From a virus, in the IMG/VR virus record IMGVR_UViG_3300033141_004862, positions 1 to 64,000 of that record: a stretch of DNA of 64,000 nt; one strand, written 5' to 3'. A program made the position numbers and the translations under genes. A model generated the notes under the pieces. It was not told where the DNA came from and did no database searches. It was given only the letters and a program-made list of their open reading frames with translations. This document shows, in pieces, positions 3,528-44,663 of this stretch (positions within the stretch are counted from its first letter, which is position 1; each line of letters begins with the position of its first letter).

Positions 3528-3901
3528 AAACGAAATGGAAGAAGGTTCGGAAGGAGTTCCAGGAAGAACTGGATGCTGTGGTAACTGAGCTATCGATCGA
3601 GAGACTTGGCGATCGCAGTAAGGATGTCGAGGGCGTCATCGTTGACGTTAGACAGGGAAAGGCATTTCCAAGCCGTGGCGAGTTTTCGGTCCCGCTCTGG
3701 TCCTTGAGACGGGGACGTGGGTTCTTCACATACTATGTGGCGCACGAGCTGGCTCACTTGTACGCAGAGACGGGCAGCCACGACGAGAGGTTTTACAGGT
3801 GGTTCAAGTTGATCTGTCCCGAGGAGTTCCAGGGTTACGAGTACTCATACAAGCCGAAGATGGCGGAGTCGTGCGGAGTGAAGAGGACCGTTGAAACATG
3901 A
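3524..3901 (+). CDS. YgjP/SprT-like zinc metallopeptidase
   Basis: 125 residues. HELAH at 74-78 plus a third His at 86 (HxxxF) form the zinc site typical of the small YgjP-like (DUF45) and SprT families. The start at 3524 overlaps the upstream stop (ATGA) and has AAAGGGAG before it; the earlier in-frame ATG at 3446 lies inside the upstream gene. Likely an intracellular protease; the target is unknown. Confidence 0.75.
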   Translation: MKTKWKKVRKEFQEELDAVVTELSIERLGDRSKDVEGVIVDVRQGKAFPSRGEFSVPLWSLRRGRGFFTYYVAHELAHLYAETGSHDERFYRWFKLICPEEFQGYEYSYKPKMAESCGVKRTVET

Positions 3902-20354: not shown

Positions 20355-21176
20355 ATGGAAGACGAAGTCATCATCAAGTGTCCTGTATGTCACGACCATC
20401 CTACACACAACCACCTCTACATCAGCCTGACCAAAGGCGTATACCACTGTTGGTTGTGCGAAGCGAAAGGCCGTCTTGACAATCTCATCAGACGGTACCC
20501 GTCGGTCAAGACCAAAATCAAGGCCGCAGACCTGGCGTTTGCCTTGAGCCGAATGAAAGAACGGAGATGGTCAAGGGAGATTCCGATATTCACGCCCCTA
20601 GCAAAAGCCAGGTTTCCGCACGCCGGAGCCTGTTTGCGATACCTCAGACGGAGGGGATTGACAGATGAGGAAATCGTCAAATACAAGGTGATGATCTCCC
20701 CAAACACACCAAACAGAGCCATTTTCCCTCACCCACAGGGACCGGACAGGTTTTGGGCGGGTCGGGCATTTTACAAAAACGTATCGCCGCCCTGGCTTTT
20801 TCCGAAGAGAGGGCAGACAAGACTTTCAAAAGGCGAGGTTGTTTGGGGAATCGAGGACGTCAGGAGGCGGGGAGAGAAGGACATCTGGATTTGCGAGGGG
20901 ATCTTCGACGCGATAGCGTGCAACGGAGTTGCCGTATTCGGGAAATCGCCCTCTCCCAAACAACTCCGCACAATAATAGAGCTTGAGCCTCGAAGATTGA
21001 TCGTTGCATTCGACGCAGACGCCGAGAAAGATGCAAGAGCCTTGCAAGAACTGACGAGAAGCGTCATCCCGACACAGGTAAGACTGCCGGAGAAGGCCGT
21101 CGACTACGGGGAATACATGAGGTTTGGATACAGACGCTTGCCGCATTCCGACCGATGGGAGAGAATCGATGATTAA
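20355..21176 (+). CDS. DnaG-type DNA primase
   Basis: 273 residues. CHC2-type zinc ribbon at 9-35 (CPVC ... CWLC), then a Toprim domain with ICEGIFDAIA (catalytic Glu) and IVAFDADAEKDA (DxD). Shorter than bacterial DnaG (about 580) and without a DnaB-binding tail, as in many phages. Makes RNA primers. Stop overlaps the SF2 helicase start. Confidence 0.9.
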   Translation: MEDEVIIKCPVCHDHPTHNHLYISLTKGVYHCWLCEAKGRLDNLIRRYPSVKTKIKAADLAFALSRMKERRWSREIPIFTPLAKARFPHAGACLRYLRRRGLTDEEIVKYKVMISPNTPNRAIFPHPQGPDRFWAGRAFYKNVSPPWLFPKRGQTRLSKGEVVWGIEDVRRRGEKDIWICEGIFDAIACNGVAVFGKSPSPKQLRTIIELEPRRLIVAFDADAEKDARALQELTRSVIPTQVRLPEKAVDYGEYMRFGYRRLPHSDRWERIDD

Positions 21177-24042
21177 GATGGCGATGGGCAACATCCGCAC
21201 GAAGGTCGTACACTTCGACCATCCCGTCGAGGAGGAGGCGATAAAGAGGGCGTTGACCTTCGTCGTCCCGAACTTCTGGTTTATGAAGTCGTACAGGAAT
21301 CGCGTCTGGGATGGCACCTACTCGTTCTACAACCGCTATTCCCGCACCTTTCCGACGGGACTGCTGAACGTGTTTCCGAGCAAGATCAAGGACCGCCTCA
21401 AGATAACCGACTGTAGGAAGAAGCCCGAGGGACTTGAACTCGGGGAGCCAACACTACGGGGAATCGTCCTCCGAGACTATCAGATCGAGGCCATCAACGA
21501 GGCAATCAGGAAAGAACGGTGCATCATCCAGTCCCCTACAAACGCAGGGAAGGCTCTCCCTGTGGATGCTAAGGTTTACACCCCGCACGGACCTGTGCGG
21601 ATGGGCGATGTTAGGGTGGGAGACATCGTATGCACGCCCTCTGGCGGCGTAGCTACCGTAGTCGGGGTCTTTCCGCAGGGAATGGTCCCCGTCTACAGGA
21701 TAACATTCAGAAACGGGGACTCCGTTGAAAGCACGGCGGACCATTTGTGGAAAATTGGAAGCAGGGTTAACGGGGTTCGCCCCAAGGTTGTTCGACTAGC
21801 AGATATTATGGGGAATTATCTGTCTCCTTCTGGGCGACCTGTTTATCAGATTTACCCTTCTGAGTGTGTGGCTTTTCGGTTTCGTCCTGTTGATATTCCT
21901 CCGTATCTGATGGGTGTTCTGCTCGGAAACGGAAAGTTGTCTGGATCAATCGTTATTTCTAATGCTGACGAAGAGTTGTTGGGTCGTGTGAAAGAGCTCC
22001 TCCTAGCCGATTATAGGCTCAGATACGATAGGGGCTGTGATTATCTTCTAACTAGGTCCCACGCCTCCGTTGCTCATGATTCTAGGGGACATCTCTGTGA
22101 GAACTACTACGTTGAGGCCCTTAAGAGGTATGGACTTTGGGGGAAACGAGCCGAGGAGAAGTTTGTTCCTGACGACTACAAGTACAACGACGCCCCGCAC
22201 CGCATTGCGCTCCTCCAGGGATTAATGGACACGGATGGCTATGCTCAGGGCGGGAAGAGGGGCATTGAATTCTGCTCCTGCTCTAAACGTTTGGCTATGG
22301 ATGTGAAGGAGTTGGTTGAATCTCTCGGAGGAGTAGCCCGGTTCAGGTCGAAGATTCCGTCTTATCTGTATGGCGGAGAAAAGCATCTCGGTCGTAGGGC
22401 TTTTACAGTCACCATCAGCGGCGACTTGGCGCACAATCTTTTTAGCATCTCACGCAAGCGCAATAAGGTCCTGGTTGGCAATAAGCATCAGTCGAGGGTT
22501 ATTACGAAAATTGAGCCTGTTGGGGAGAAGGAATGTCAGTGTCTTTACGTAGACTCTCCGGAACATATGTACGTCACTGATCATTGCGTTCCTACCCATA
22601 ATACGGAGATGGGAGCGGGGATAATGAAGGTTCTGCGCCACCTTAGAATCCTCTGGCTTATCCACAGAGGCGATCTCATGTACCAAACAAAGGAACGCCT
22701 CGAGCACAGGCTTGGAGAACCCGTAGGCGTCATCCATCGAGACAAATTGGACATCAGACGTGTCAACGTCGCCATGGTGCAAACCTTATACAAGAGGCTG
22801 AGGTCGAAGGGAAAGCAAAAGCAGACGAAAGTGTGGCTCAAGGACTTTCTGATGAATCACGTCGACGTAATGATCCTCGATGAATGTCTGGACGGACAAA
22901 CCCAAGTGGCGACGCCGAAAGGAGAGGTCGCACTCCAAACTTTGAGAGCTGGCGATGAGGTGCTCACGCCAGACGGCAAAGTGGCAAGAGTGCGAAGGAT
23001 ATGGAAAACGAGAAAACCAGCCTTCCTCTTTCGGGTCAAAGGACAGCACAGATATCTCATCGCATCAAAAGACCACGTTGTCAAAACTCCCGATGGCCTG
23101 AAGGAAATCGGACAGGCGAAACGACTGACGCTCGGAATCACTGGAGTCAAACGAAAGCGAGAGAAACTCTTCCAACGAACAGTGGAACTTCGACAACCCA
23201 TCCCGCTGGGTGTGCGAGACCTATACGACATCGAAATCGACAGCCACGAACATCTCTTCGTAGCCAACGGCTTCATAGTTTCCAACTGCCACCATACAAG
23301 CTCGACAAGCTGGAGGACAATCGCCAAGTCCTGCAATGCCTTCTACAGATACGGGCTTTCCGCCACTCCGTTGATGCGAGAGGAAATCCAAAACCTGTGG
23401 CTTATCGGCATGACGGGAGAGGAAATCAAAACTGTCACGAATCGAGATCTCATCAGACGCGGCATCTCGGCCCGTCCCCGAATTGTCAGAATCAAGAACT
23501 GGGTTAACACTGCAGGTCGAGAATACAGAGGAGCCTACAAGGTAGGCGTCGAGTTGAACGAAAAGCGAAACCAAACCATCGCAGGCTTGATGAGGTTGCA
23601 CAAACGACGAAATGAGCCTATACTCGTCCTCGTCAACACAATACGACATGGAAACGCAATCAAGGCCATCGCACCCCCGGGGACGGTCTTCCTGTCGGGA
23701 CTCGAAACGAGCGAATACAGGGTGGCCGCTTTGAGGAATCTCAAACGTGGAATCATCAAGACACTGATAGCAACGCCGATTTTTGACGAGGGAATCGACG
23801 CGCCGATCGTCAGAGCTATGGTGCTAGGAGGAGCAGGAAAGTCGCACATGCGCCTACTTCAAAGAATAGGACGCGGGATGCGTCGAAAGCCCTCGGGCGA
23901 AAACGTCGTCACCATCTACGACTTCGAGGACAAGGGAGACAAGTATCTCGAAGGGCACAGCATCTACAGACTGAAGCTCTACCAAAACGAAGGATTCGAC
24001 GTGATCCCGACAACGATACAATTCGAAAGGGGAAATGAATGA
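21169..24042 (+). CDS. SF2 DNA helicase (UvsW-like) with two inteins
   Basis: 957 residues as read; 473 after removing two inteins (129-478 and 573-706). Exteins: N-terminal domain, Walker A SPTNAGK/T, motif II LDE/CHH (DECH box), motif III GLSATP, motif VI QRIGRGMRRK. Size and order fit T4 UvsW/RadD-type helicases that process branched DNA and start recombination-dependent replication. Start ATG 21169 overlaps the primase; the in-frame 21124 start lies inside it. Both inteins sit at catalytic motifs, so the helicase is inactive until both splice. Confidence 0.92.
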   Translation: MIKMAMGNIRTKVVHFDHPVEEEAIKRALTFVVPNFWFMKSYRNRVWDGTYSFYNRYSRTFPTGLLNVFPSKIKDRLKITDCRKKPEGLELGEPTLRGIVLRDYQIEAINEAIRKERCIIQSPTNAGKALPVDAKVYTPHGPVRMGDVRVGDIVCTPSGGVATVVGVFPQGMVPVYRITFRNGDSVESTADHLWKIGSRVNGVRPKVVRLADIMGNYLSPSGRPVYQIYPSECVAFRFRPVDIPPYLMGVLLGNGKLSGSIVISNADEELLGRVKELLLADYRLRYDRGCDYLLTRSHASVAHDSRGHLCENYYVEALKRYGLWGKRAEEKFVPDDYKYNDAPHRIALLQGLMDTDGYAQGGKRGIEFCSCSKRLAMDVKELVESLGGVARFRSKIPSYLYGGEKHLGRRAFTVTISGDLAHNLFSISRKRNKVLVGNKHQSRVITKIEPVGEKECQCLYVDSPEHMYVTDHCVPTHNTEMGAGIMKVLRHLRILWLIHRGDLMYQTKERLEHRLGEPVGVIHRDKLDIRRVNVAMVQTLYKRLRSKGKQKQTKVWLKDFLMNHVDVMILDECLDGQTQVATPKGEVALQTLRAGDEVLTPDGKVARVRRIWKTRKPAFLFRVKGQHRYLIASKDHVVKTPDGLKEIGQAKRLTLGITGVKRKREKLFQRTVELRQPIPLGVRDLYDIEIDSHEHLFVANGFIVSNCHHTSSTSWRTIAKSCNAFYRYGLSATPLMREEIQNLWLIGMTGEEIKTVTNRDLIRRGISARPRIVRIKNWVNTAGREYRGAYKVGVELNEKRNQTIAGLMRLHKRRNEPILVLVNTIRHGNAIKAIAPPGTVFLSGLETSEYRVAALRNLKRGIIKTLIATPIFDEGIDAPIVRAMVLGGAGKSHMRLLQRIGRGMRRKPSGENVVTIYDFEDKGDKYLEGHSIYRLKLYQNEGFDVIPTTIQFERGNE
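21553..22602 (+). mobile_element. Class 3-type intein with LAGLIDADG endonuclease in helicase Walker A
   Basis: 350 residues between K of NAGK and T of TEMG. First residue is Ala (ALPVDAKVY), not Cys or Ser. The three class 3 marks are visible: Trp in block B (TADHLW), Cys in block F (CLYVDSPEHMYV) and Thr in block G (VPTHN), with Thr as +1 residue. LAGLIDADG motifs are YLMGVLLGNGKL and LLQGLMDTDGY. Its middle (about 21790-22500) is more AT-rich than the exteins. Confidence 0.88.
22885..23286 (+). other. Mini-intein (134 aa) in helicase motif II
   Basis: Starts with Cys (CLDGQTQVATPKGEV) inside LDECHH, block B is SKDHVVKT, block F VRDLYDIEIDSHEHLFV, and it ends IVSN with Cys +1. No endonuclease. 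The penultimate residue is Ser in place of the usual His. At 134 residues it is about as small as natural inteins get. Its base composition matches the host gene, unlike most inteins here. Confidence 0.88.
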
Positions 24043-34741: not shown

Positions 34742-35932
34742 TTGAGGTTCATAGCGTTTTCGGACCTGCATCTCCATCCGTTTAGGGCGTTTGCCTCTTA
34801 CGGAGAACGGGGGAACTCTCGGCGGCTGGAGATTGCGGAGCGTCTCCGAAACATTGTGGACATTGCCAACATGGACAAGTACGATGCCGTTGTCTTTGCG
34901 GGAGACTTCTTCCACGAACGGGGGAAGGTGAACGTGACCTCGATGACGATGGCGAAGGACATCCTCGGCAAGTTGAAGAAGCCGTTTATCGCCTGCTCGG
35001 GTACGCACGATTTGACGCCGGGAGGCCATTCTTCAATGACGGCGTTCAAGGAGCTTGCGGCTACCCTGAAAACGATGCAGGGAAGGAACCGGGTTGCGAC
35101 GTTCCACCTCGACGAGACGGTCACGCTGTTTGACAGTGCGATGACGCAGTGGACTTTCGTTTGCGTGCCTGATCCTTTGGACTACTCGGAGCATTACCGA
35201 CGCATCGTGGGGGCGCACCTTCTTGCGACGTCGAACCATCGCACGAACCTAATCCTGGTGACACACGGATTCGTGAGCGGCGAGCCGTGGGGAGGAGCGA
35301 GTTGGATGCCGACGGCACTGGATCCCACCGAGTTGAATCGCCTCTTCGCATTCTCCGTGGTAGGCCATTACCACAAACCTGCCTACGAGAACAGAATCCT
35401 CGTTCCGGGAGCCGCCATTCCTCACCATTTTGGGGACGAGGAGGCGGGAGGAGGAGCCGTGTGGGACGTTTCCATCGAGCACGATTCAAAAGAGGACATC
35501 TATCGGGCGAGTTGCACCCCAATATCCTTCACGCACCCGCAGTTTCGGACGGTTAGGTTGGCAAGCGGAGAGGAGTTCGACGGCACGTCAAGCGACTACT
35601 ATCGGATATTCACCAACGACCCCGATTTCGTGCTCCCCGAAGGAATCAAAGGAATCGTCATCTACGAACCCCCAGCGGAGAGAGTTGCGACCTCTGACAG
35701 GTCGGAAATCAGGCCCGCTGACTCACGAAGAGATCTCGTTTCCAAATGGGTGGACAGGAAGCTCGGAGACACGAGGGCGGCTGAGGACGGGGAGAAGGTA
35801 TCGAGGGCGAGAGAATTGGTTGATCGATTGAAGGAGAAGTACAAACGGGTGGGCGAGATCTTGGCAAGCGATTCCCCGACCCTCACCCCAGAGGAAATGG
35901 AGGAAATCGAACGAGTGATGGAGGAACGATGA
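34742..35932 (+). CDS. SbcD/Mre11-type nuclease (T4 gp47-like), TTG start
   Basis: 396 residues. Metallophosphatase motifs: SDLHLH, AGDFFHE, SGTHDL (Thr replaces the usual Asn of GNHD), THG and GHYHKP. Forms with SbcC the ATP-driven nuclease that trims DNA ends for recombination. TTG start with GGGGAG ten bases upstream; overlaps sbcC. Confidence 0.9.
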   Translation: MRFIAFSDLHLHPFRAFASYGERGNSRRLEIAERLRNIVDIANMDKYDAVVFAGDFFHERGKVNVTSMTMAKDILGKLKKPFIACSGTHDLTPGGHSSMTAFKELAATLKTMQGRNRVATFHLDETVTLFDSAMTQWTFVCVPDPLDYSEHYRRIVGAHLLATSNHRTNLILVTHGFVSGEPWGGASWMPTALDPTELNRLFAFSVVGHYHKPAYENRILVPGAAIPHHFGDEEAGGGAVWDVSIEHDSKEDIYRASCTPISFTHPQFRTVRLASGEEFDGTSSDYYRIFTNDPDFVLPEGIKGIVIYEPPAERVATSDRSEIRPADSRRDLVSKWVDRKLGDTRAAEDGEKVSRARELVDRLKEKYKRVGEILASDSPTLTPEEMEEIERVMEER

Positions 35933-38862
35933 GGGTCGAGTTCAAAAAGCTCGAAATTCAGAACTTCATGTGTTTCGAGTCCGCAACGTTCGAGTTCCAT
36001 GATAGCGGCCTGCACTTGATATGCGGGAAGGTTGAACGTGCGGACGCACCCTCAGCAAATAGTAATGGTGCTGGGAAGTGTTTACCGGAAGATTCCCCGG
36101 TGTTGATGTCAGACGGCTCGTGGCGAAAGTTGAAAGAGGTTCGAGTTGGTGATTGGGTAATGTGTGCTGATTTCGGAAAGGGCTGTTGCGTGCCGTCTCC
36201 GGTAGTTGCAGTGAGGGATTCTGGGGAGAAGGAGGTTTATGAGATTACGTTTTCGGATGGCGGGAAGGTTTGCGCTTCTGGAGAACATATATTTCCAATG
36301 AAGTTTTTTGCGGGCGGGCCATTCAAGATGCGGAGCGTGTTTGAGTTAGTTAAGAAGTATCAGTCTTCTGACATTAAACCTTCGCGCAGAGCTAGGTTTT
36401 TGACTTTGCCCATTGAGTATCCGGAGAGGGCTTTGCCACTAGACCCGTATTTAATTGGACTTTTGTTAGGTGATGGAATTTGTGATTTGGACAGTCGCCC
36501 TGGGTATTGGGTGACCACGACGGATTCTGAGATAGTTGAGTATTGCCGAGGGCAGTCTGAGATGTTTGGGTTTGAGCAGAGGAATGATGGGATGACCTAT
36601 CGAGTTTTTCCTCGAAGATATGGCAGTTCCGCCCCTAGTGACATTTTGGCCTCTTTGGGCATGAAGGGGAAGCGAGCAGAATCCAAGGAGATACCCCAAA
36701 GTTATCTAAGGTCTTCAGTGGAACAACGAAAGCATCTATTGGCTGGTTTAGTTGATACCGATGGGTATGTTGGAAGTGGTAGTATGATAGAGTTGTCCAC
36801 GAAGTCAGAGAAGTTGAAAGATGGAATCGTGGAGTTATTTTATTCGTTGGGCGGTAGGGCAAAGGCTGTGTTGCGAGAGGATGGCAAGAATTGGCGTGTT
36901 TATGGGCATTTACCGAGAGGTTGCGTTTTGCCCTTGAAGGTTAAAAGGAAGTTAGAAGTTCACAAGGAGAAGTCTAGGTGTATGTTGGATTATTCGTTGA
37001 GGATTGTTCGGGATGTGAAGCTGGTTGGGCGGAAACGGTGTGGAGATATTCAAGTGGCCCACAAAGACCATTGTTTTGTTTCTCATAGTTATGTAGTAAC
37101 TGGAAATAGTGCGATTTTTGAGGCGCTCACCTGGTGCCTGTTCGGAAAGACGCTACGTGGCATGAGGGCGAACGACGTTGTTCGCATCGGTTCCGAGGGA
37201 GGTTGCGTCGTCAAAGTGGAGTTCGTCAAGGGGGACAGGAACTACGCAGTTCGCCGATACCGACTTCACCCCATCCTCGGAAATAGAGTCGAGACCTATG
37301 TGTGGCGGACGGGATCTGCGCCGGAGGAGACGACGAAGAGCATCATTGCGGAAACGGACAGACACATCGTCGACAATCTCGGATTCTCGTTCGACCTCTT
37401 CCGAAACTCCGTATGCTACGGACAGGGCCTCCCCTACAGATTCGCACAAGCGACTGATGCGGAGAAAAAGGGAATCCTCGAGGAAATCTTGTCGATGGGG
37501 TGGGTTCGGAGGGGGCGGCTCAAAGCGTCGCAAGCCCTTCGGGACTATCAGGAGGCTCGGCGAGCGGTTGGGGCGGAAACCGACTCGTTGTGGGCGAGGC
37601 TCCACGACCACAGGGACAGAATTCGGGAGCTGTCATCCTTGCAACAACCGGACCCGGAGGAAGGAGAGCACGATGAGATCGCCAGCCTGGAGAGCGAGTT
37701 GAGGTCGTTGCAGAGTGAACGTAAGAGGATAGACGAGGAGGTTGCGACAATGGTGGCGGAGGTGAAAAAGGAAGAGGAACATCTCAAAAAACTGAGGGAC
37801 GAGATCGCCGATAGGAACAATGAGCTTACTCGTATCCGCACCGAGACAAACTTATTCACCATGAAGATGGAGGCGTGCGAAAAAAGAATAGAAGAGGCGA
37901 AGTCCCGAAAACTTCTCGGCAAGGACTGCCCAACATGCAAGAGAAAGATAACGGCTTCGGCGTTGAAGGGCATTGAGGCGACGGCAAAAAGCGAAATTCA
38001 GAGCATCAAACGGAAGTTGCAAAGGCGGAGGAACAGGGAGAACGCCATTTCGTATGAGGTGGTAGAGCTGCTGTCCTGGAGGCACCAAGTTGAGGAAAGG
38101 TTGTCGGAGAAGATAGCAGTACGGGACGGGCTGACGAACCAACGACCAAGCCTGCTGGCTCGAATCGCCTCCTGTCGAGAGAGGATTGATGCAAAGCGGC
38201 GGGAGGTGGCGAAGCCGGACAACATCAGCAGGCTCATCCAGGAGGAGCGACAACGGGCCGAGGCGTTGGAAGAGTCGATTCAGAAAAACCGTGAGTTAGA
38301 AGAGTACATCTCGAGTCTCATACGCGTCATGGAGTTTTGGGAGGAGGGGTTCGGGAATCAAGGTTTGAAATCGCTGATAATCGACAATCTCGTTCCGTTC
38401 CTGAACCACGCAGCCCGGAGGTACTCAACAATGCTGACGGACGGGGAAGTGGAGGTGGAGTTTCGGACCCAGACCGAGACTCTGAGGGGGGAGGTGCGGG
38501 AACGATTCGAGGTCGACGTGACACATCGTTCCGGCACCGACTACGCAGGTGGCTCGGGAGGAGAGAAGAGGAGAGTCGACGTGATTGTCCTCCTTGCACT
38601 TCACGACCTTATCGCTTGGCAGAACGGTGTCGACACGAACATCCTGATTTTCGACGAGGTGTTTGAGAACCTAGACGAGGTGGGCACCGAAAGGCTGGTG
38701 CTGATGCTGCGTGACAAGGCCGCAGGATCGGCGGAAAGGGGCGAACGTCCCCGGGCCGTCTACATCATATCCCATACGGACGAACTCGTGGAAGAGTGTG
38801 ACGACACCCTTTGGGTGCGCAAGGACAGTCGGGGAATCTCGTTGTTGGAGAGAAGACAATGA
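35929..38862 (+). CDS. SbcC/Rad50-type ATPase (T4 gp46-like) with one intein
   Basis: 977 residues as read, 634 after splicing. Walker A SNGAGK/S split by an intein (51-393), two long coiled coils around a zinc hook CPTC, ABC signature SGGEKRR, Walker B ILIFDEVFENLD and a C-terminal H-loop (IISHTDE). Partner of the SbcD protein in DNA end resection. ATGA coupling on both sides. Confidence 0.92.
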   Translation: MRVEFKKLEIQNFMCFESATFEFHDSGLHLICGKVERADAPSANSNGAGKCLPEDSPVLMSDGSWRKLKEVRVGDWVMCADFGKGCCVPSPVVAVRDSGEKEVYEITFSDGGKVCASGEHIFPMKFFAGGPFKMRSVFELVKKYQSSDIKPSRRARFLTLPIEYPERALPLDPYLIGLLLGDGICDLDSRPGYWVTTTDSEIVEYCRGQSEMFGFEQRNDGMTYRVFPRRYGSSAPSDILASLGMKGKRAESKEIPQSYLRSSVEQRKHLLAGLVDTDGYVGSGSMIELSTKSEKLKDGIVELFYSLGGRAKAVLREDGKNWRVYGHLPRGCVLPLKVKRKLEVHKEKSRCMLDYSLRIVRDVKLVGRKRCGDIQVAHKDHCFVSHSYVVTGNSAIFEALTWCLFGKTLRGMRANDVVRIGSEGGCVVKVEFVKGDRNYAVRRYRLHPILGNRVETYVWRTGSAPEETTKSIIAETDRHIVDNLGFSFDLFRNSVCYGQGLPYRFAQATDAEKKGILEEILSMGWVRRGRLKASQALRDYQEARRAVGAETDSLWARLHDHRDRIRELSSLQQPDPEEGEHDEIASLESELRSLQSERKRIDEEVATMVAEVKKEEEHLKKLRDEIADRNNELTRIRTETNLFTMKMEACEKRIEEAKSRKLLGKDCPTCKRKITASALKGIEATAKSEIQSIKRKLQRRRNRENAISYEVVELLSWRHQVEERLSEKIAVRDGLTNQRPSLLARIASCRERIDAKRREVAKPDNISRLIQEERQRAEALEESIQKNRELEEYISSLIRVMEFWEEGFGNQGLKSLIIDNLVPFLNHAARRYSTMLTDGEVEVEFRTQTETLRGEVRERFEVDVTHRSGTDYAGGSGGEKRRVDVIVLLALHDLIAWQNGVDTNILIFDEVFENLDEVGTERLVLMLRDKAAGSAERGERPRAVYIISHTDELVEECDDTLWVRKDSRGISLLERRQ
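36079..37107 (+). mobile_element. Intein with LAGLIDADG endonuclease in SbcC Walker A
   Basis: 343 residues. Starts CLPEDSPVLMSDGSW after GAGK, block B ASGEHIFPM, endonuclease motifs YLIGLLLGDG and LLAGLVDTDGYV, ends SYVVTGN with Ser +1. The penultimate His of typical inteins is Gly here. Visibly more AT-rich (TTT, TTG, GTT codons) than the extein, a sign of recent arrival. Confidence 0.9.
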
Positions 38863-38915
38863 CGACGCGACAGAGAGAAACCTCGAGGTCTGGCAACAAG
38901 AGAAGGAGGAGAACT

Positions 38916-39548
38916 ATGCCTAAAGGATTGAGACCCCACGGCGGGGAGATAGTGATGGTCCCCATCGATGAGATAACGCTTCTCGCCAATCCAAAAATTC
39001 ACAGTGAGGAACAAATCACGGACATGATGGATTCCATCAAGAAATTCGGATTTGTTGACCCCTGCCTCATTGGGCCAGCGAACACCCTACTTGCAGGCTA
39101 TTGCAGGCTCGAAGCGATGAAGCGGCTCGGCCACACAGAGATTCCATGTCGAATCGTTCGACTCAAGGAGGACGAATTTTTTGCGTACATCATGTCGGAA
39201 GGGAGGATTGCGGAGAAGACAAGTTGGGACTACGAGGTCTTCATTAAGAAGTACCTGGAAATGCCCGAGGTGGAGAGGGCAAACATAGTGGCGTGGAGAG
39301 AGGAGGAGATACAAGATCTGATTCGTTGGCAAGAGGAGCAGGCTCAACCCGTGGAGATTGAAGAGCCGACGGAGCTTCCTCCCCCTCCCGAACTCGATAC
39401 GTCGAGGGTGCAGGTGAACCTCTCGTTCCCGAGACGCTATTGGGACCTCCATCACGAGGAGATCGAGAACGAACTGATGGACTTTTGTAGGAGGCACGAG
39501 GGGGCGGAGTTTCAGGCTCGGTTGGAGTTCGGAAGGAGACGCCGTTGA
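38916..39548 (+). CDS. ParB/Srx-like nuclease-domain protein
   Basis: 210 residues. MVPIDEITLLANPKIHSEEQ then FGFVDPCLIG...LLAGYCRLEAMKRLG is the ParB N-terminal (ParB/sulfiredoxin-like) fold with its GxxR-type loop (AGYCRLEA). No helix-turn-helix partition domain. ATG 38916 has AAGGAGGAG; 38859 (ATGA overlap) is the alternative. It sits directly upstream of the Ubl cassette region, as ParB genes do in PRTRC-type clusters. Confidence 0.8.
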   Translation: MPKGLRPHGGEIVMVPIDEITLLANPKIHSEEQITDMMDSIKKFGFVDPCLIGPANTLLAGYCRLEAMKRLGHTEIPCRIVRLKEDEFFAYIMSEGRIAEKTSWDYEVFIKKYLEMPEVERANIVAWREEEIQDLIRWQEEQAQPVEIEEPTELPPPPELDTSRVQVNLSFPRRYWDLHHEEIENELMDFCRRHEGAEFQARLEFGRRRR

Positions 39549-39619: not shown

Positions 39620-39811
39620 ATGGAAAGAAGATTCACAGACGAGAAAGAGTGTGCTGCCTACGATGCGGAAAATGGTACGTGGCTCATGTGGTCAGCCACG
39701 GGCGCTCCGGATAAAGACGGACGGCTCTGCACACGAGAAGCGTGCAAGCACCATGAGGTATGCAAGAATTATCAGACATGGTACGGAGGGAGCAAGCCAC
39801 TCTTGAGGTGA
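39620..39811 (+). CDS. Small Cys-rich protein
   Basis: 63 residues. C-terminal half has CTREACKHHEVC, a Cys/His cluster likely to bind zinc. GGAGG ribosome site. Function unknown. Confidence 0.55.
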   Translation: MERRFTDEKECAAYDAENGTWLMWSATGAPDKDGRLCTREACKHHEVCKNYQTWYGGSKPLLR

Positions 39812-39816
39812 CGAAC

Positions 39817-40395
39817 ATGGCGAAGACAGTATGGTCAGAGTCCCTGACTGACGTATTTGAAGCCGCAGAAACGTTCTGCAAGCGTGTCGATGAGCAGAAG
39901 TCGCTGAAGCTGTTCATATCTTTCTACGACTCGGCGCTTAGAGAGATGTTCCTGCGTCCCGAAGATGAGATGACGGAGCTTACACGCACCGTTTGGCTCG
40001 ACATCATTCGCTGGCTCGTGGCGTACAGAATTGCAAAGCTCAGGACGATGCGTGATCATTTGTGGATCGTCGTCGACTTGTTTCTACATACAGAACTCGA
40101 TCCGTGGTGTACATTCACGATGACGTTCGGAAAGACATGTGCCGACTGCCCGCTCGTCAAGCATAACGCGGTCAAGTTTGAGAGGATAAGCAATGCCGTG
40201 ATGTCGGTGGACAGCTTCTTGCGTTGCAAGCTGGCAAATCCTGCATTCCGCGAGATGGTGAAGGTTTTTCAGAAAAAGGATTTCGCCGCCTACAAGAAGC
40301 TCGTCCAAAGACAGGTTTTCGACAACCAAGCGGTGAAAGTTTGGAACGCCGTAAGAGGGAGGAGCAAAGATGGAAAGCGGAGGGACGATCCTTGA
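39817..40395 (+). CDS. Hypothetical helical protein with Cys cluster
   Basis: 192 residues, helical; FGKTCADCPLV near residue 110 plus further Cys at about 91 and 138. Start 39817 with GAGG upstream. Not recognised; lies between the ParB gene and the Ubl cassette. Confidence 0.55.
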   Translation: MAKTVWSESLTDVFEAAETFCKRVDEQKSLKLFISFYDSALREMFLRPEDEMTELTRTVWLDIIRWLVAYRIAKLRTMRDHLWIVVDLFLHTELDPWCTFTMTFGKTCADCPLVKHNAVKFERISNAVMSVDSFLRCKLANPAFREMVKVFQKKDFAAYKKLVQRQVFDNQAVKVWNAVRGRSKDGKRRDDP

Positions 40396-40723
40396 CGGGA
40401 GGACCGGAATGGATTTGACGAGCTACGAGAAGGCCTGTTATCTTCTCGCCCTCTATCGTGGTGCTATGGTGACGCTGGAGAGCAAGAAAGAGGCAGAAGA
40501 AGACAACAAGGAATTGCATGACATCCTCGAAAAGCTAATGATAGGCCAGGAGATGATTCTCAAGTTGTGGCAGGAGGAGGAGACAAGATCTTTCGACGAC
40601 GTGGTGGACGAACTTGTGGGCCGTGTGGGCGTGGAGGGGTTTCTTCGCGACGTCACCAAGCTCTTGCAGCTTACGAGAACCGAAAGCCGAGCGGCCGATG
40701 ACGTCAATGACAAGCCTCATTGA
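40370..40723 (+). CDS. Hypothetical helical protein
   Basis: 117 residues, acidic and helical, overlapping the upstream gene; GGGAGGAG ribosome site. Not recognised. Confidence 0.55.
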   Translation: MESGGTILDGRTGMDLTSYEKACYLLALYRGAMVTLESKKEAEEDNKELHDILEKLMIGQEMILKLWQEEETRSFDDVVDELVGRVGVEGFLRDVTKLLQLTRTESRAADDVNDKPH

Positions 40724-40726
40724 ACG

Positions 40727-40757
40727 TTGAATCATGACTGTCGGTGACAATTCTAAT
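40727..40757 (+). promoter_or_regulatory. Two-part phage promoter for the Ubl cassette
   Basis: TTGAAT (40727-40732), 10 bases, GGTGACAATTCTAAT (40743-40757), then AAAAATTTTAGACGGAGG. Starts a unit containing only the Ubl, E2, E1 and JAB genes before the terminators at 44465-44663. Confidence 0.75.
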
Positions 40758-40793
40758 AGAGAAAGAAGGAAAAAATTTTAGACGGAGGCAAAG

Positions 40794-41117
40794 ATGAACG
40801 AAAGAGATGGAATCGAAAGGCGTGCGCAGGACGAACCCTCCAACACCGAGAACGTATTTAGGCGATCTTCGGAGCGAGAGGGCGAGCGGGGAAGTTCTGA
40901 TGGCGTGAGGATTGCCGAGTTGGGACGCCCGCCCCACATCGTGCATTTGGGGCCGGACGAGCACATGACCATCGCAGACCTTATCGCCGAAGGACACGTG
41001 ACGGGAGCGCCCGACGTTCAGTATTTCGTCAATTCCCGTCAGGTTCACGATCTGTCGACGAGAGTCGAGAACGGAGACTCGGTCGTTGCCGTGAAGCGCA
41101 TAACGGCGGGTTGTTGA
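40794..41117 (+). CDS. Ubiquitin-like beta-grasp protein (ThiS/MoaD-like)
   Basis: 107 residues. The first 45 are disordered and charged. Residues about 46-107 have the beta-grasp order: HIVHLGPDEHMTIADLI, then YFVNSRQVHDLSTRVENGDS, then VVAVKRITAGC. The NGDSVV turn is typical of ThiS/MoaD/ubiquitin-like proteins. It ends Gly-Cys, so either the JAB peptidase must remove the Cys to expose Gly or the Cys has a role of its own. First gene of the conjugation cassette. Confidence 0.7.
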   Translation: MNERDGIERRAQDEPSNTENVFRRSSEREGERGSSDGVRIAELGRPPHIVHLGPDEHMTIADLIAEGHVTGAPDVQYFVNSRQVHDLSTRVENGDSVVAVKRITAGC

Positions 41118-41177
41118 TTCTAACATCTCAGCGATGAGAACCGAAGAGCCGGGGAGTCGAGACAAGGAGAACATTCA

Positions 41178-42641
41178 ATGACGCACGAACTTTGGCCGAC
41201 AGTCACCGTCTTCCGAAGGGGCGTTGCGCAGTCCGCCGCCTCGGTTCTTTTGGGCCTAGGTGCGTCGGCACCTCGTGGGCTGATGGCAGTACCCGGAGCG
41301 AACGAGCAGCAAATCTGCGTATTCGGAGAACAACTCGACGAGTTTATACGGTTGTGCAGAACCCACGGCTACGAAGTTAGAGTCGGATCGGGAGCGCCGC
41401 CCCAACCAGCGACTCCCCAGGAACGAGTTACTCCGTCAGAACCGGTACCTCCTTCCGAGGAGAAATGGGTGAGGCACAGGGAGCTGGGGAGAGCCAGGGG
41501 GGCAAGAACGAGAGAGCAGTTACGAGAGGAGCTATCCAGGGTAAGAACGCGACTAAGGCGAAGAAGGACACCCACGACCAGCATTCCCGAAGGCGATATC
41601 GTAATGGACGAGTCCGGCAACCTGCGGGTGGACAGAGCGGAAGCCGAGACGTTCAGGCGTCTCGTATCGACGAAAACGGAGCCTTTGAGGAATGCCGAGG
41701 ACGAAGCGAGAAAGCGACTTAGCACGACGCGGGTTCAGAAGGACATTGCCGATAGGATGGCGGACATATTGATAACGCAGTCGAGTTCGCAGATGGAGAA
41801 AATGCGGACGCAGCTGAGCGAGATGACGAATCAGTACTTCCAGATGATAGACACCGCTCAATCCATAGTCGGACTCTATCAAGCCGAAAAGCATCTCAAA
41901 AAGGCGTTTGACCAGGTGAAATCACAACTCACCGAGGACGGCGAGGAGACGCGGAAACGAAAAGGCACGTTCAGATCGTACGCCAGATTGTTCGGGAAGG
42001 ATACGAAGTTCTACGAGGACCTTTTCCGGAAGGGCTGCGAGTCGGTCCTGGATACGTTGGCGGGCCAGGACGGAATGGCAAAGAAGGTTGAAGAGGTGAT
42101 CGAATCAACGGTAAGGCAGGCGGCGAAAATAGACGCGCTCCGAAGGCTCCTGAACGCTTCATCTTTAGAAAGACGGGCGCATTTGCGAAAAGAGTGCGAA
42201 GAACAGGTGCGGCAGATAGCGAACTACGACTTCGTCACCGCAGTAAGCGTCGAGAACCAGACGCTCCTGGTTGATGTCAAAGAGGTCATCATCATACATA
42301 ACAGCCAGCGGTGGAACCTGGGCAGGTACAGAATGAAAATAGCATTGGGACCGAGAGAAGCACGTAGCCCCCGAATCGTCCTGTTCAACCTGGATTGGGG
42401 AAGCAACTACGGTCCCCAGGGGCCTCATATCACTAATAAGGGAACCGTCATCTGCTGGGGGAACATCGGAGCGGGCGTGAAAAAGCTCCATGCGGATTGG
42501 AACTGGCCCTTGCTCGTTCATATCCTGTGGAACTACCTCCACAGCTACACGCCGGGCGATTGTTTCAACAGGATTGAGACCCTGTTCGAGCAGTTAGGAC
42601 GTAGCCCCGAGCCTTTGGTCGGGCCTGCGGAAAATAAATAA
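41178..42641 (+). CDS. E2-fold ubiquitin-conjugating-like protein with long N-terminal region
   Basis: 487 residues. About 1-75 form a small alpha/beta domain, 80-350 are charged and helical, and 355-475 look like a prokaryotic E2 fold: WNLGRYRMKIALG, then GPHITNKGTVICWGNIG where C426 would be the catalytic Cys in the bacterial PHI...G..C.G pattern, then a helix bundle (LLVHILWNYLHSYTPGD). Flanked by Ubl and E1 genes, which supports the E2 call; sequence alone is moderate. The long N-terminus may select the target. Confidence 0.6.
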   Translation: MTHELWPTVTVFRRGVAQSAASVLLGLGASAPRGLMAVPGANEQQICVFGEQLDEFIRLCRTHGYEVRVGSGAPPQPATPQERVTPSEPVPPSEEKWVRHRELGRARGARTREQLREELSRVRTRLRRRRTPTTSIPEGDIVMDESGNLRVDRAEAETFRRLVSTKTEPLRNAEDEARKRLSTTRVQKDIADRMADILITQSSSQMEKMRTQLSEMTNQYFQMIDTAQSIVGLYQAEKHLKKAFDQVKSQLTEDGEETRKRKGTFRSYARLFGKDTKFYEDLFRKGCESVLDTLAGQDGMAKKVEEVIESTVRQAAKIDALRRLLNASSLERRAHLRKECEEQVRQIANYDFVTAVSVENQTLLVDVKEVIIIHNSQRWNLGRYRMKIALGPREARSPRIVLFNLDWGSNYGPQGPHITNKGTVICWGNIGAGVKKLHADWNWPLLVHILWNYLHSYTPGDCFNRIETLFEQLGRSPEPLVGPAENK

Positions 42642-42653
42642 AAGGAGGAGTCG

Positions 42654-43379
42654 GTGGCGGAAGAAAGAGAACAAAACCAACCCGAAAACCAGACCGTGGA
42701 CTACCAGAGACAGCTCGACATCTTCGACCCGGAGATACACAATGGTAGGACCGTCGAAATTATCGGCGCAGGAGGCATAGGTTCGTTCGTGGCTTTGGCT
42801 TTGGCAAAGCTCGGCCTGAAGCATCTCAGGGTGTGGGATGGGGATGATTTGGAGGCCCACAACGTTCCGAACCAGTTCCACCTCGTTAAGGCGCTCGGAA
42901 AGAAGAAGGTCGTCTCGACGAAGACGTTGTGCAAGGAGATGGCGGATACGGAGATTGAAGTCGTTCCTGAATTTTGGGAGCCGGGGAAAGAGCTGAATGG
43001 GCTAGTCATCTCAGCGGTGGACAGCATGGGCATCACGGAAGATGACCCGAGGCCGGGACGGAAGGAGCTGTGGGAAGCAGTCAGAGTGAGTCCGAGTGTC
43101 GAACTGCTGATCGACGCAAGGCTGGGAGGCGAGACGATTCGCGTCCTGTCGATCAGGCCCATCAACGATGCCTTGAAGCATGGTTGGTATGAGTCAAACC
43201 TGTTTACCGACAAGGAAGGTGCAGACTTGCCTTGTACGGGACGGTCAATTATCGACGTTGGTTTCGCTGTGGCAGCCATCATCACTCGGTTGGTGAGGGG
43301 ATATCTGAAGGACGGCGAGGTCATTCACGATATCGTGCTGAGTATGCGAGATCTAACGCTTATCAAAGTGGAGGTTTAG
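42654..43379 (+). CDS. ThiF/E1-like ubiquitin-activating enzyme
   Basis: 241 residues. Rossmann ATP site GAGGIGS (38-44), acidic WDGDDLEAHNVPNQ (61-74), SAVDSMG near 120-126, and C194 in DLPCTGRS as the likely catalytic Cys. Adenylates the Ubl C-terminus and forms a thioester. The single-domain size matches PRTRC/bacterial E1s. GTG start nine bases after AAAGGAGG. Confidence 0.88.
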   Translation: MAEEREQNQPENQTVDYQRQLDIFDPEIHNGRTVEIIGAGGIGSFVALALAKLGLKHLRVWDGDDLEAHNVPNQFHLVKALGKKKVVSTKTLCKEMADTEIEVVPEFWEPGKELNGLVISAVDSMGITEDDPRPGRKELWEAVRVSPSVELLIDARLGGETIRVLSIRPINDALKHGWYESNLFTDKEGADLPCTGRSIIDVGFAVAAIITRLVRGYLKDGEVIHDIVLSMRDLTLIKVEV

Positions 43380-43382
43380 CCA

Positions 43383-44408
43383 ATGAGTAAGAAGAAAAGT
43401 AGCAAGGAGAAAAAAGCCGCCGTAGTTGAGGTGTCGGAGCGAAAAAAGCCCGAAGAGGTCAAGTGGTCGATCCGCATGTCGCGGAAAATCCACGAAAAGA
43501 TGCTGTACATCGCCAAGCTGAGCGAGCCGCGCGAGGTACAGATGCTGGCGGCGGTGACGCAAAACGACAGGGAGTTCGAAATCGAGGACCTCTTTTTACT
43601 GAAACAGGGGGTGACCTTCGGTTCGGCGGACTTCGACATTCAGGATGTCGCGGAACTCGTGGCAAGGTATCCGCACCCGGAAAAGCTACGGGGGTGGGTG
43701 CACAGTCATGTTCGGATGGGAACCTTCTGGAGCGGCACAGACATTGCGACGATCCAGCGACTCATGACGGACCTAGGGTGGCTCGTCAGTATTGTGATGT
43801 GCACGGACGGCTCGATGAGAGGCAGGATCGACGTGAGCCTGGCCGATATGCAGAAAAAGGTGAGAGAAGCTCCTGAACGGTACCAGGAGTTTCGCAACCT
43901 CCTGATGGTGCCTGAGATAGTGACCTGGGACGAGCTTCCGGTCAAGGTTGAGGAGGCGTTGACCGAGGAGGAGAAGTCAGCCATCAGAGCGGAGTTCGAG
44001 GAGAAAGTTGGCGGTAGTGAGTGGGAGGAGCCGACCTTCCTTCATCATGGTGAACGGGTGCTGAGAAAGTATGCGGAAGAAAGGCCGCGCTACCAGCGAA
44101 CGCTCGACTTCAGTACCACAGCGACTCGTGAGATGTGCAGGACTTGCCGCTTTTGGAATCTGTCCGATTCCGGAGGATACATGAAAAGGTGCAAAAAGAG
44201 CGGCAGGCTGATGCAAGGAGACGAAGGATGTTCCGAGTGGGAGGAGCGGGAAGAATTTGATGAAGGTACCGACTCGGAGCAGCTGTCCTGCACTTCGTGC
44301 CGATACGAAACGCACGGGCTGACGTGTCTGAAGGGCGTGGACCGTGGCGGCAGCTTCTACCAAGACAGGGCGGATTTGCACTGTCCGTTCTACGTTCCTC
44401 GGGACTAG
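43383..44408 (+). CDS. JAB/JAMM metallopeptidase (Mov34/MPN) with Cys-rich C-terminus
   Basis: 341 residues. MPN core about 25-180 with a perfect JAMM motif: H107-S-H109, seven residues, S117, two residues, D120. C-terminal about 245-341 is Cys-rich (MCRTCRFW, CKKSG, CSEW, CTSCRYE, CLKG, CPF), probably two zinc modules. In such cassettes the JAB protein trims the Ubl or removes it from targets. Four bases after the E1 gene. Confidence 0.88.
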   Translation: MSKKKSSKEKKAAVVEVSERKKPEEVKWSIRMSRKIHEKMLYIAKLSEPREVQMLAAVTQNDREFEIEDLFLLKQGVTFGSADFDIQDVAELVARYPHPEKLRGWVHSHVRMGTFWSGTDIATIQRLMTDLGWLVSIVMCTDGSMRGRIDVSLADMQKKVREAPERYQEFRNLLMVPEIVTWDELPVKVEEALTEEEKSAIRAEFEEKVGGSEWEEPTFLHHGERVLRKYAEERPRYQRTLDFSTTATREMCRTCRFWNLSDSGGYMKRCKKSGRLMQGDEGCSEWEEREEFDEGTDSEQLSCTSCRYETHGLTCLKGVDRGGSFYQDRADLHCPFYVPRD

Positions 44409-44464: not shown

Positions 44465-44485
44465 ATCTCGGCGCAACGCCGAGAT
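44465..44485. terminator. Perfect 9-bp GC-rich hairpin after the JAB gene
   Basis: ATCTCGGCG-CAA-CGCCGAGAT, followed by a second hairpin GCCTGG-TCCCG-CCAGGC (44488-44504). No clear U-run; probably ends or stabilises the Ubl-cassette transcript. Confidence 0.55.
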
Positions 44486-44639: not shown

Positions 44640-44663
44640 CCCAGACTCCCTCTGGGTTTTTGT
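44640..44663 (+). terminator. Intrinsic terminator
   Basis: CCCAGA-CTCCC-TCTGGG followed by TTTTTGTT: the clearest rho-independent terminator in the window. Separates the replication/Ubl half from the packaging/head half. The 44409-44639 gap holds the other hairpins and no convincing gene. Confidence 0.8.

Follow-up and report, generated by a model that had tools for sequence, protein, structure and literature searches.

Can a bacteriophage carry a ubiquitin-like conjugation pathway of its own? The question is raised by a stretch of viral DNA (hereafter, the window) that comprises positions 1-64,000 of the 67,841-base IMG/VR record IMGVR_UViG_3300033141_004862. Four consecutive genes in the window had been predicted from the sequence alone to encode a ubiquitin-like protein (Ubl), an E2-like conjugating enzyme, a ThiF-type E1 activating enzyme and a JAB/JAMM metallopeptidase. 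All four open reading frames are present, in tandem on the + strand and with spacings of 60, 12 and 3 nt, and the core of the original prediction, a complete Ubl-E2-E1-JAB set driven by a phage promoter in a phage, survived each available test. The results considered here, whether observed or computed, are the gene identities, the folds or profile matches, the conservation of catalytic residues, the conservation of the set in phages and bacteria, and a shared promoter element. We conclude, with good confidence, that the cassette represents a reversible Ubl-conjugation pathway encoded by the phage.

The window phage is of a type with a T4-like major head protein, portal, UvsX-like recombinase, SbcD, DnaB and DNA polymerase. 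It is not a member of Crassvirales, an order in which divergent relatives of the cassette are described below; thus, the cassette occurs in unrelated phage lineages. Across the 64-kb window, the JAB motif and the E2 motif are each found once, within the cassette, and neither is found on the reverse strand. No Rfam families or tRNAs were found in the window.

Identification of the four components

In single-protein searches, neither the Ubl nor the E2 matched any Pfam, NCBIfam, PHROG or PADLOC family above chance. Since no family library recognised them, both proteins were analysed by structure and profile comparisons. The Ubl (107 aa; 40794..41117, + strand) has a flexible N-terminus (residues 1-36) and a core (residues 37-106) modelled by AlphaFold (AF2) as a single domain with the beta-beta-alpha-beta-beta-beta order of the beta-grasp fold, at predicted local distance difference test (pLDDT) values of 91-95. 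MoaD, ThiS, Urm1 and SAMP proteins rank high in comparisons with Foldseek and VIA-align. The best structural matches are MoaD/ThiS (MoaD Z 8.0 over 65 aligned residues), with Gly106 of the Ubl and Gly81 of MoaD as the final aligned pair, and a profile search of the PDB yielded archaeal SAMP2 (4.5e-9). The confident core and these matches bear out the predicted beta-grasp fold. The proposed Gly-Cys ending (ITAGC) stands only in its first half: Gly106 is kept in 8/8 aligned Ubls and AG is unchanged in three phage Ubls, whereas Cys107 is variable. The endings in window-type phages are AGC, AG and AGV, and the terminal Cys of the window Ubl is therefore incidental.

The E2-like protein (487 aa; 41178..42641, + strand) was characterised by AF2 secondary structure, hhalign and profile searches. 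It comprises an alpha/beta region (residues ~1-70), a helical coiled coil (~154-326) and a UBC-like C-terminal domain (~329-455). The predicted catalytic Cys426 (PHITNKGTVICWG; codon at 42453..42455, + strand) is unchanged in an alignment of 13 E2s from phages and bacteria. With a profile built from seven E2 sequences of phages, the nine best PDB matches were UBE2L3 (E 0.025). After addition of the bacterial relatives, the top 16 of 177,635 PDB sequences were all E2s, the best again being UBE2L3 (1.9e-5), and the match holds an HPN-like motif and the catalytic Cys in register, Cys426 falling on the catalytic Cys of UBE2L3. The last 160 residues of the AF2 model follow the element order of the UBC domain, alpha-4 beta-(H..C)-2 alpha, at low confidence. 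Judged by its profile match, the second gene thus probably encodes an E2, as had been proposed.

The E1 (241 aa, GTG start; 42654..43379, + strand) matches Pfam ThiF (4.3e-13) and phrog_15670 (4e-16). It has the nucleotide site GAGGIGS (GxGGxGS type), the catalytic Asp/Asn/Lys residues and a thioester Cys, predicted to be Cys194 (LPCTGRS; codon at 43233..43235, + strand). The catalytic residues and Cys194, the latter within an invariant PCT, are the same in five divergent phage E1s. The JAB/JAMM metallopeptidase (341 aa; 43383..44408, + strand) matches Pfam Prok-JAB (1.6e-5) and, by profile, Rpn11 (3e-8). Its zinc motif is HSHVRMGTFWSGTD, and HSHx7SxxD is invariant in relatives. The C-terminal tail is Cys-rich and zinc-ribbon-like, and is partly conserved as CxxC...CxKGxDR...C. 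Both enzymes are therefore what they were originally taken to be, and the Ubl Gly, E2 Cys and E1 Cys, whose conservation in homologues had been singled out as a check, are all invariant.

Since the Ubl is structurally closest to MoaD and ThiS, and the E1 matches ThiF/MoeB, the pair might instead be a sulphur carrier system of the ThiS-ThiF or MoaD-MoeB kind, with the E2 and JAB as accessories. We consider this very unlikely. Cys93 and Cys194 are the only cysteines of the E1, which has no zinc CxxC pairs and hence lacks the four-Cys zinc site of ThiF/MoeB; neither a rhodanese nor a thiolation target was noted near the cassette; and almost every phage locus described in the next section also has a JAB and an E2 whose catalytic Cys is conserved.

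Related loci in phages

Single-protein queries retrieved no phage relative of the Ubl from GenBank phages and none of the E2 from IMG/VR and GenBank phages; relatives of both surfaced only via the E1 and through alignments. E1 scans located the same cassette in the near-identical IMG/VR contigs L002 and L003 and in L010, with E1 identity of 59-60%; these represent two or three other phages. The search for the four-gene set in related phages, proposed together with the original prediction, thus succeeded. The Ubl-E2-E1-JAB order and two short upstream genes are kept in these contigs, and Ubl AG, E2 PHIT..G...CWG, E1 LPCT and JAB HSHVxMGxFWSGxD are invariant across them and the window. In the more distant L011 (607-5916), an array of E2-like genes, several of which retain HPHxxxxxxPCWG and others of which are without the Cys, precedes the JAB and E1 genes. 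In the E1 tree, the window phages fall into one clade (100/100 support), neighbouring bacterial E1s and not the Crassvirales clade, with deeper forks being poorly supported.

A divergent form, in the order Ubl-E2-JAB-E1, is found in crAss001, Flavobacterium phages and ~20 further phage contigs. The window E1 matches the 'thiamine biosynthesis protein ThiF' of Flavobacterium Fpv phages, crAss001 and other Bacteroides phages, and the window JAB matches the metalloprotease-domain gene of those Fpv and Bacteroides phages. The analysis covered 28 other phage loci with an E1 relative. Nearby, the JAB motif is present in 28/28, an E2-like H...C.G in 27/28 and a Ubl-like gene in 26/28 (25 by pattern and L015 by eye), against 0, 0 and at most 2 when the opposite strand and the distant flanks of these loci served as controls; because the E2 and Ubl patterns are post hoc and many loci are interrelated, these counts describe rather than test the association.

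The assignments within the Crassvirales loci differ in strength: E1 and JAB are firm, whereas E2 and Ubl are probable. The lower grade of the E2 reflects a link that is weaker than those of E1 and JAB, hhalign between the E2s of the window-type and Crassvirales groups giving 34% (E 4e-4). For the Ubls of the two groups hhalign was unsuccessful, and the link is drawn from gene order, the K-S/A-G motif and a structure match. In a comparison with viral structures, the window Ubl model matched a 289-residue Fpv3 protein and a 211-residue cr111_1 protein, whose lengths agree with those of the genes that occupy the Ubl position in these two phages. Fifteen Crassvirales-type Ubls share a K-[S/A]-G motif downstream of their last strand, with Lys and Gly invariant, and continue in a long tail, which suggests that these Ubls are precursors processed by the adjoining JAB. 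In crAss001, gp79-gp76 (L005 3791-8201) are probably Ubl, E2, JAB and E1, respectively, with gp76 having ~140 additional N-terminal residues ahead of the E1 domain. The Crassvirales set lies among primase, uracil-DNA glycosylase, resolvase and exonuclease genes.

Two loci have peculiarities of their own. In Flavobacterium phage Fpv1, a LAGLIDADG-like open reading frame (L004 6184-6933, - strand) splits the JAB gene, which is uninterrupted in Fpv3 (L018). The Fpv1 gene directly before ThiF was considered as an E2 and rejected, being the C-terminal part of the split JAB gene. In L015 (5101-6135), a phage E2 has a C-terminal RING-like Cys cluster (CxxC...C.H....CxxC...CxxC), a possible E2-E3 fusion.

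Bacterial relatives

The E1 alignment, used to scan bacterial and archaeal genomes, returned 96 E1 relatives. Many of these are accompanied by a small Ubl with a Gly-Gly or closely similar C-terminus, a coiled-coil E2 with HPHI..G.PC[LW]GN and a JAB, and such cassettes are found in Methylomirabilota, Ignavibacteria, Rubrobacter and genomes of the candidate phyla radiation. One bacterial Ubl is a Pfam ThiS match (3.7e-7). Alignment by hhalign connects the phage and bacterial proteins for both the Ubls (94%, E 1.2e-7) and the E2s (99.4%, E 8e-22). No published name was found for these bacterial Ubl (-KIxGG)/E2 (HPHI-dG-PC[LW]GN)/E1/JAB operons.

Promoter element and genomic neighbourhood

The cassette had been credited with its own phage promoter. 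A promoter-like element, GTTGAA-N11-GGTGACAATnCTtAT (40720..40764, + strand), indeed precedes the Ubl gene and is near-identical to eight more copies in the window, all on the + strand. The nine copies lie at 3884, 4835, 8784, 17224, 24751, 28147, 31860, 39538 and 40720, and their consensus is GTTGAA or GATGAA, 11 nt, GGTGACAAT, then CTtAT. They score 38-48 bits, compared with 8 for the next best site in the window and a shuffle maximum of ~17, and a model built without the element before the Ubl still recovered it, at 32 bits versus 9 for the tenth best. Several of them sit 20-30 nt ahead of called genes. The nine elements are unlike sigma-70 promoters, and a standard sigma-70 scan did not single out the one before the Ubl. 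No significant score was obtained for the element in the relatives of the cassette.

The elements span 3.9-40.7 kb, the part of the window in which primase, DnaB, polymerase, UvsX and SbcD genes are named, and none lies in the downstream packaging and structural part with terminase, portal and capsid genes. From this distribution we infer that the cassette is expressed together with the DNA-metabolism genes. The same evidence bears on a virion or assembly role, in which the Ubl would be joined to capsid, tail or packaging proteins as a counterpart of virion tagging by the bacterial Bil system. Bil reportedly attaches its Ubl to a phage tail protein, as described in 2024, and the terminase and portal genes come straight after the window cassette. 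We nevertheless regard such a role as unlikely, given that the promoter element is common to the DNA-metabolism genes and absent downstream, and that the Crassvirales set sits among replication genes.

At the other end of the unit, which hairpins had been said to close, there are a perfect 9-bp stem (44465..44485) which is not significant alone and a terminator-like hairpin with a T-run (44640..44656, + strand), although sites of this kind hardly exceed chance expectation in the region (11 versus 7.3 expected). Upstream, the gene called ParB (38859..39548, + strand) is there, and phrog_498 (4e-23) and phrog_620 (8e-21) match it, but the ParB_N match (5.4e-5) is weak and below the cut-off. A ParB-like gene is also found upstream of the cassette in L002/L003, before the two short genes. 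In the window, these short genes encode proteins of 211 aa (39760..40395, + strand) and 117 aa (40370..40723, + strand), and both have counterparts at the corresponding positions of L002 and L010. The 117-aa protein is helical. The 211-aa protein has no family match in Pfam and PHROG searches; its invariant PWC...TFG..C..CPL...C is a possible metal site, and the protein may be a metal-binding accessory or adaptor. Farther upstream, the gene of an SbcC-like protein (35929-38862) is interrupted by an intein with a LAGLIDADG homing endonuclease (Pfam), and residues 119-499 of a helicase (21124-24042) match terminase families and may be a further, shared intein.

Proposed function

Charging, transfer, attachment and removal of a Ubl are established chemistry for E1, E2 and JAMM enzymes. 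In the cassette, any trimming required to expose the conserved Gly of the Ubl would fall to the JAB or to a host protease. The E1 would adenylate this Gly with ATP and then hold the Ubl on Cys194, from where it would pass to Cys426 of the E2. The E2 would attach it to a protein, possibly picked by its coiled coil or N-terminal domain, and the JAB could remove it again. Conjugation itself, trimming and removal by the JAB, and the timing of expression are thus put forward by inference, and the substrates are a guess. The cassette most likely acts on DNA-handling proteins of the phage or the host during takeover and replication, as suggested by its location and by the promoter class shared with DNA-metabolism genes. 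As substrates, we tentatively place DNA-replication, recombination or other phage proteins first; host defence proteins are possible but rather doubtful, and virion proteins less probable still.

Several points weigh against a conjugation pathway. The active-site loop of the E2 model is poorly predicted (pLDDT 33), and Foldseek with the full E2 model, a search swamped by the coiled coil, returned coiled coils and no E2; the identity of the E2 therefore rests on sequence profiles. No E3 was identified, and sulphur transfer could be served by the ATP-dependent Ubl/E1 pair alone.

Bacterial E1/E2/JAB sets serve anti-phage defence in CBASS, with Cap2/Cap3 (PMC10097602), and in BilABCD (PMC11354881). 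The phage copy could target this same machinery, by placing the phage Ubl on host immune proteins or by using the JAB to strip host Ubl tags, and so blunt defences such as CBASS or Bil that depend on Ubl conjugation themselves. Action early in takeover would agree with the promoter class. Such counter-defence seems to us rather unlikely. The cassette is kept as a unit in very divergent phages, beside replication genes, whereas counter-defence genes are usually patchy in distribution, and stripping tags needs less than a complete cascade with its own Ubl.

Returning to a phage-owned conjugation pathway, we think it probable on balance that complete Ubl pathways belong to the regular gene content of several tailed-phage lineages, Crassvirales included, and rewire host or phage proteins during replication. 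The 'thiamine biosynthesis protein' and 'metalloprotease' of Crassvirales would then be E1 and JAB, acting with a C-terminally processed Ubl precursor. Bacterial Ubl conjugation has so far been known mainly as an anti-phage weapon, and a cascade owned by the phage reverses this picture. The phage Ubl-E1-E2-JAB cascade is also a compact, testable pathway. Crassvirales are the most abundant human gut phages, and if the crAss001 locus, whose relevant genes are currently annotated as thiamine biosynthesis or hypothetical, is a counterpart, a gut phage that is both cultured and widespread is already at hand for testing the question.

Comparison with known systems

Operons of E1, E2, JAB and Ubl have been described in bacteria, with only tail-assembly Ubl and JAB in phages (Iyer et al. 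2006, PMC1779556). A literature search, with bioRxiv and most subscription journals outside its reach, found no published phage Ubl cascade, and ThiF and ubiquitin are both absent from the Crassvirales papers PMC10354031 and PMC10136315. As far as we found, Ubl-conjugation operons as such are thus known and their phage-borne form is new; the related phage sets, that of crAss001 included, have apparently been overlooked so far.

The original prediction had likened the cassette to PRTRC (operon type 6d, PMC1779556). The two share a single Ubl with a C-terminal Gly, E2, E1, JAB and a nearby ParB gene, which could indicate that a plasmid-borne PRTRC cassette was captured by a phage, with ParB in plasmid-like maintenance. 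Membership was rejected, however, and we hold such a capture to be highly improbable. The NCBIfam PRTRC models are far from their cut-offs for ThiF (19.8 versus 144.75 bits) and ParB (17.4 versus 278.6) and give no match for Ubl, E2 and JAB. The His downstream of the PRTRC-type E2 Cys (PMC1779556) is not conserved, being His in the window and Lys and Met in relatives. The nearest cellular relatives belong to another bacterial operon type, and the likeness to PRTRC is an analogy only.

BilABCD is likewise a four-part set of Ubl, E2, JAB and E1, but BilA has two Ubl domains, BilB the CEHH motif (C, E+6, H+8, H+13; PMC11354881) and BilD an extra inactive adenylation domain. The window set has a single Ubl domain and a one-domain E1, with A, V and A at the places of E, H and H in the E2, and was not assigned to BilABCD. 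Nor does it belong to type II CBASS (Cap2/Cap3), which requires an E2-E1 fusion, since its E2 and E1 are separate genes. The lambdoid tail assembly proteins TAPI/TAPK (PMC1779556) are also a phage-encoded Ubl and JAB, but in a tail assembly locus without E1 or E2. Archaeal SAMP2 with JAMM1 combines the same Ubl family with a JAB, SAMP2 being the closest solved Ubl by profile; that system is cellular and lacks an E2. The Crassvirales/Fpv loci share with the window the phage-encoded E1 and JAB, the E2-like and Ubl-like neighbours and the DNA-metabolism context, and differ in E1 sequence (20-30% identical), in the Ubl-E2-JAB-E1 order and in their tailed Ubl precursor. The bacterial operons described above have the same four components, profile homology of Ubl and E2, E1s <=37% identical and the E2 coiled coil; they differ from the phage cassette in being cellular, in having Ubls that mostly end in Gly-Gly rather than Ala-Gly and in their varying gene order.

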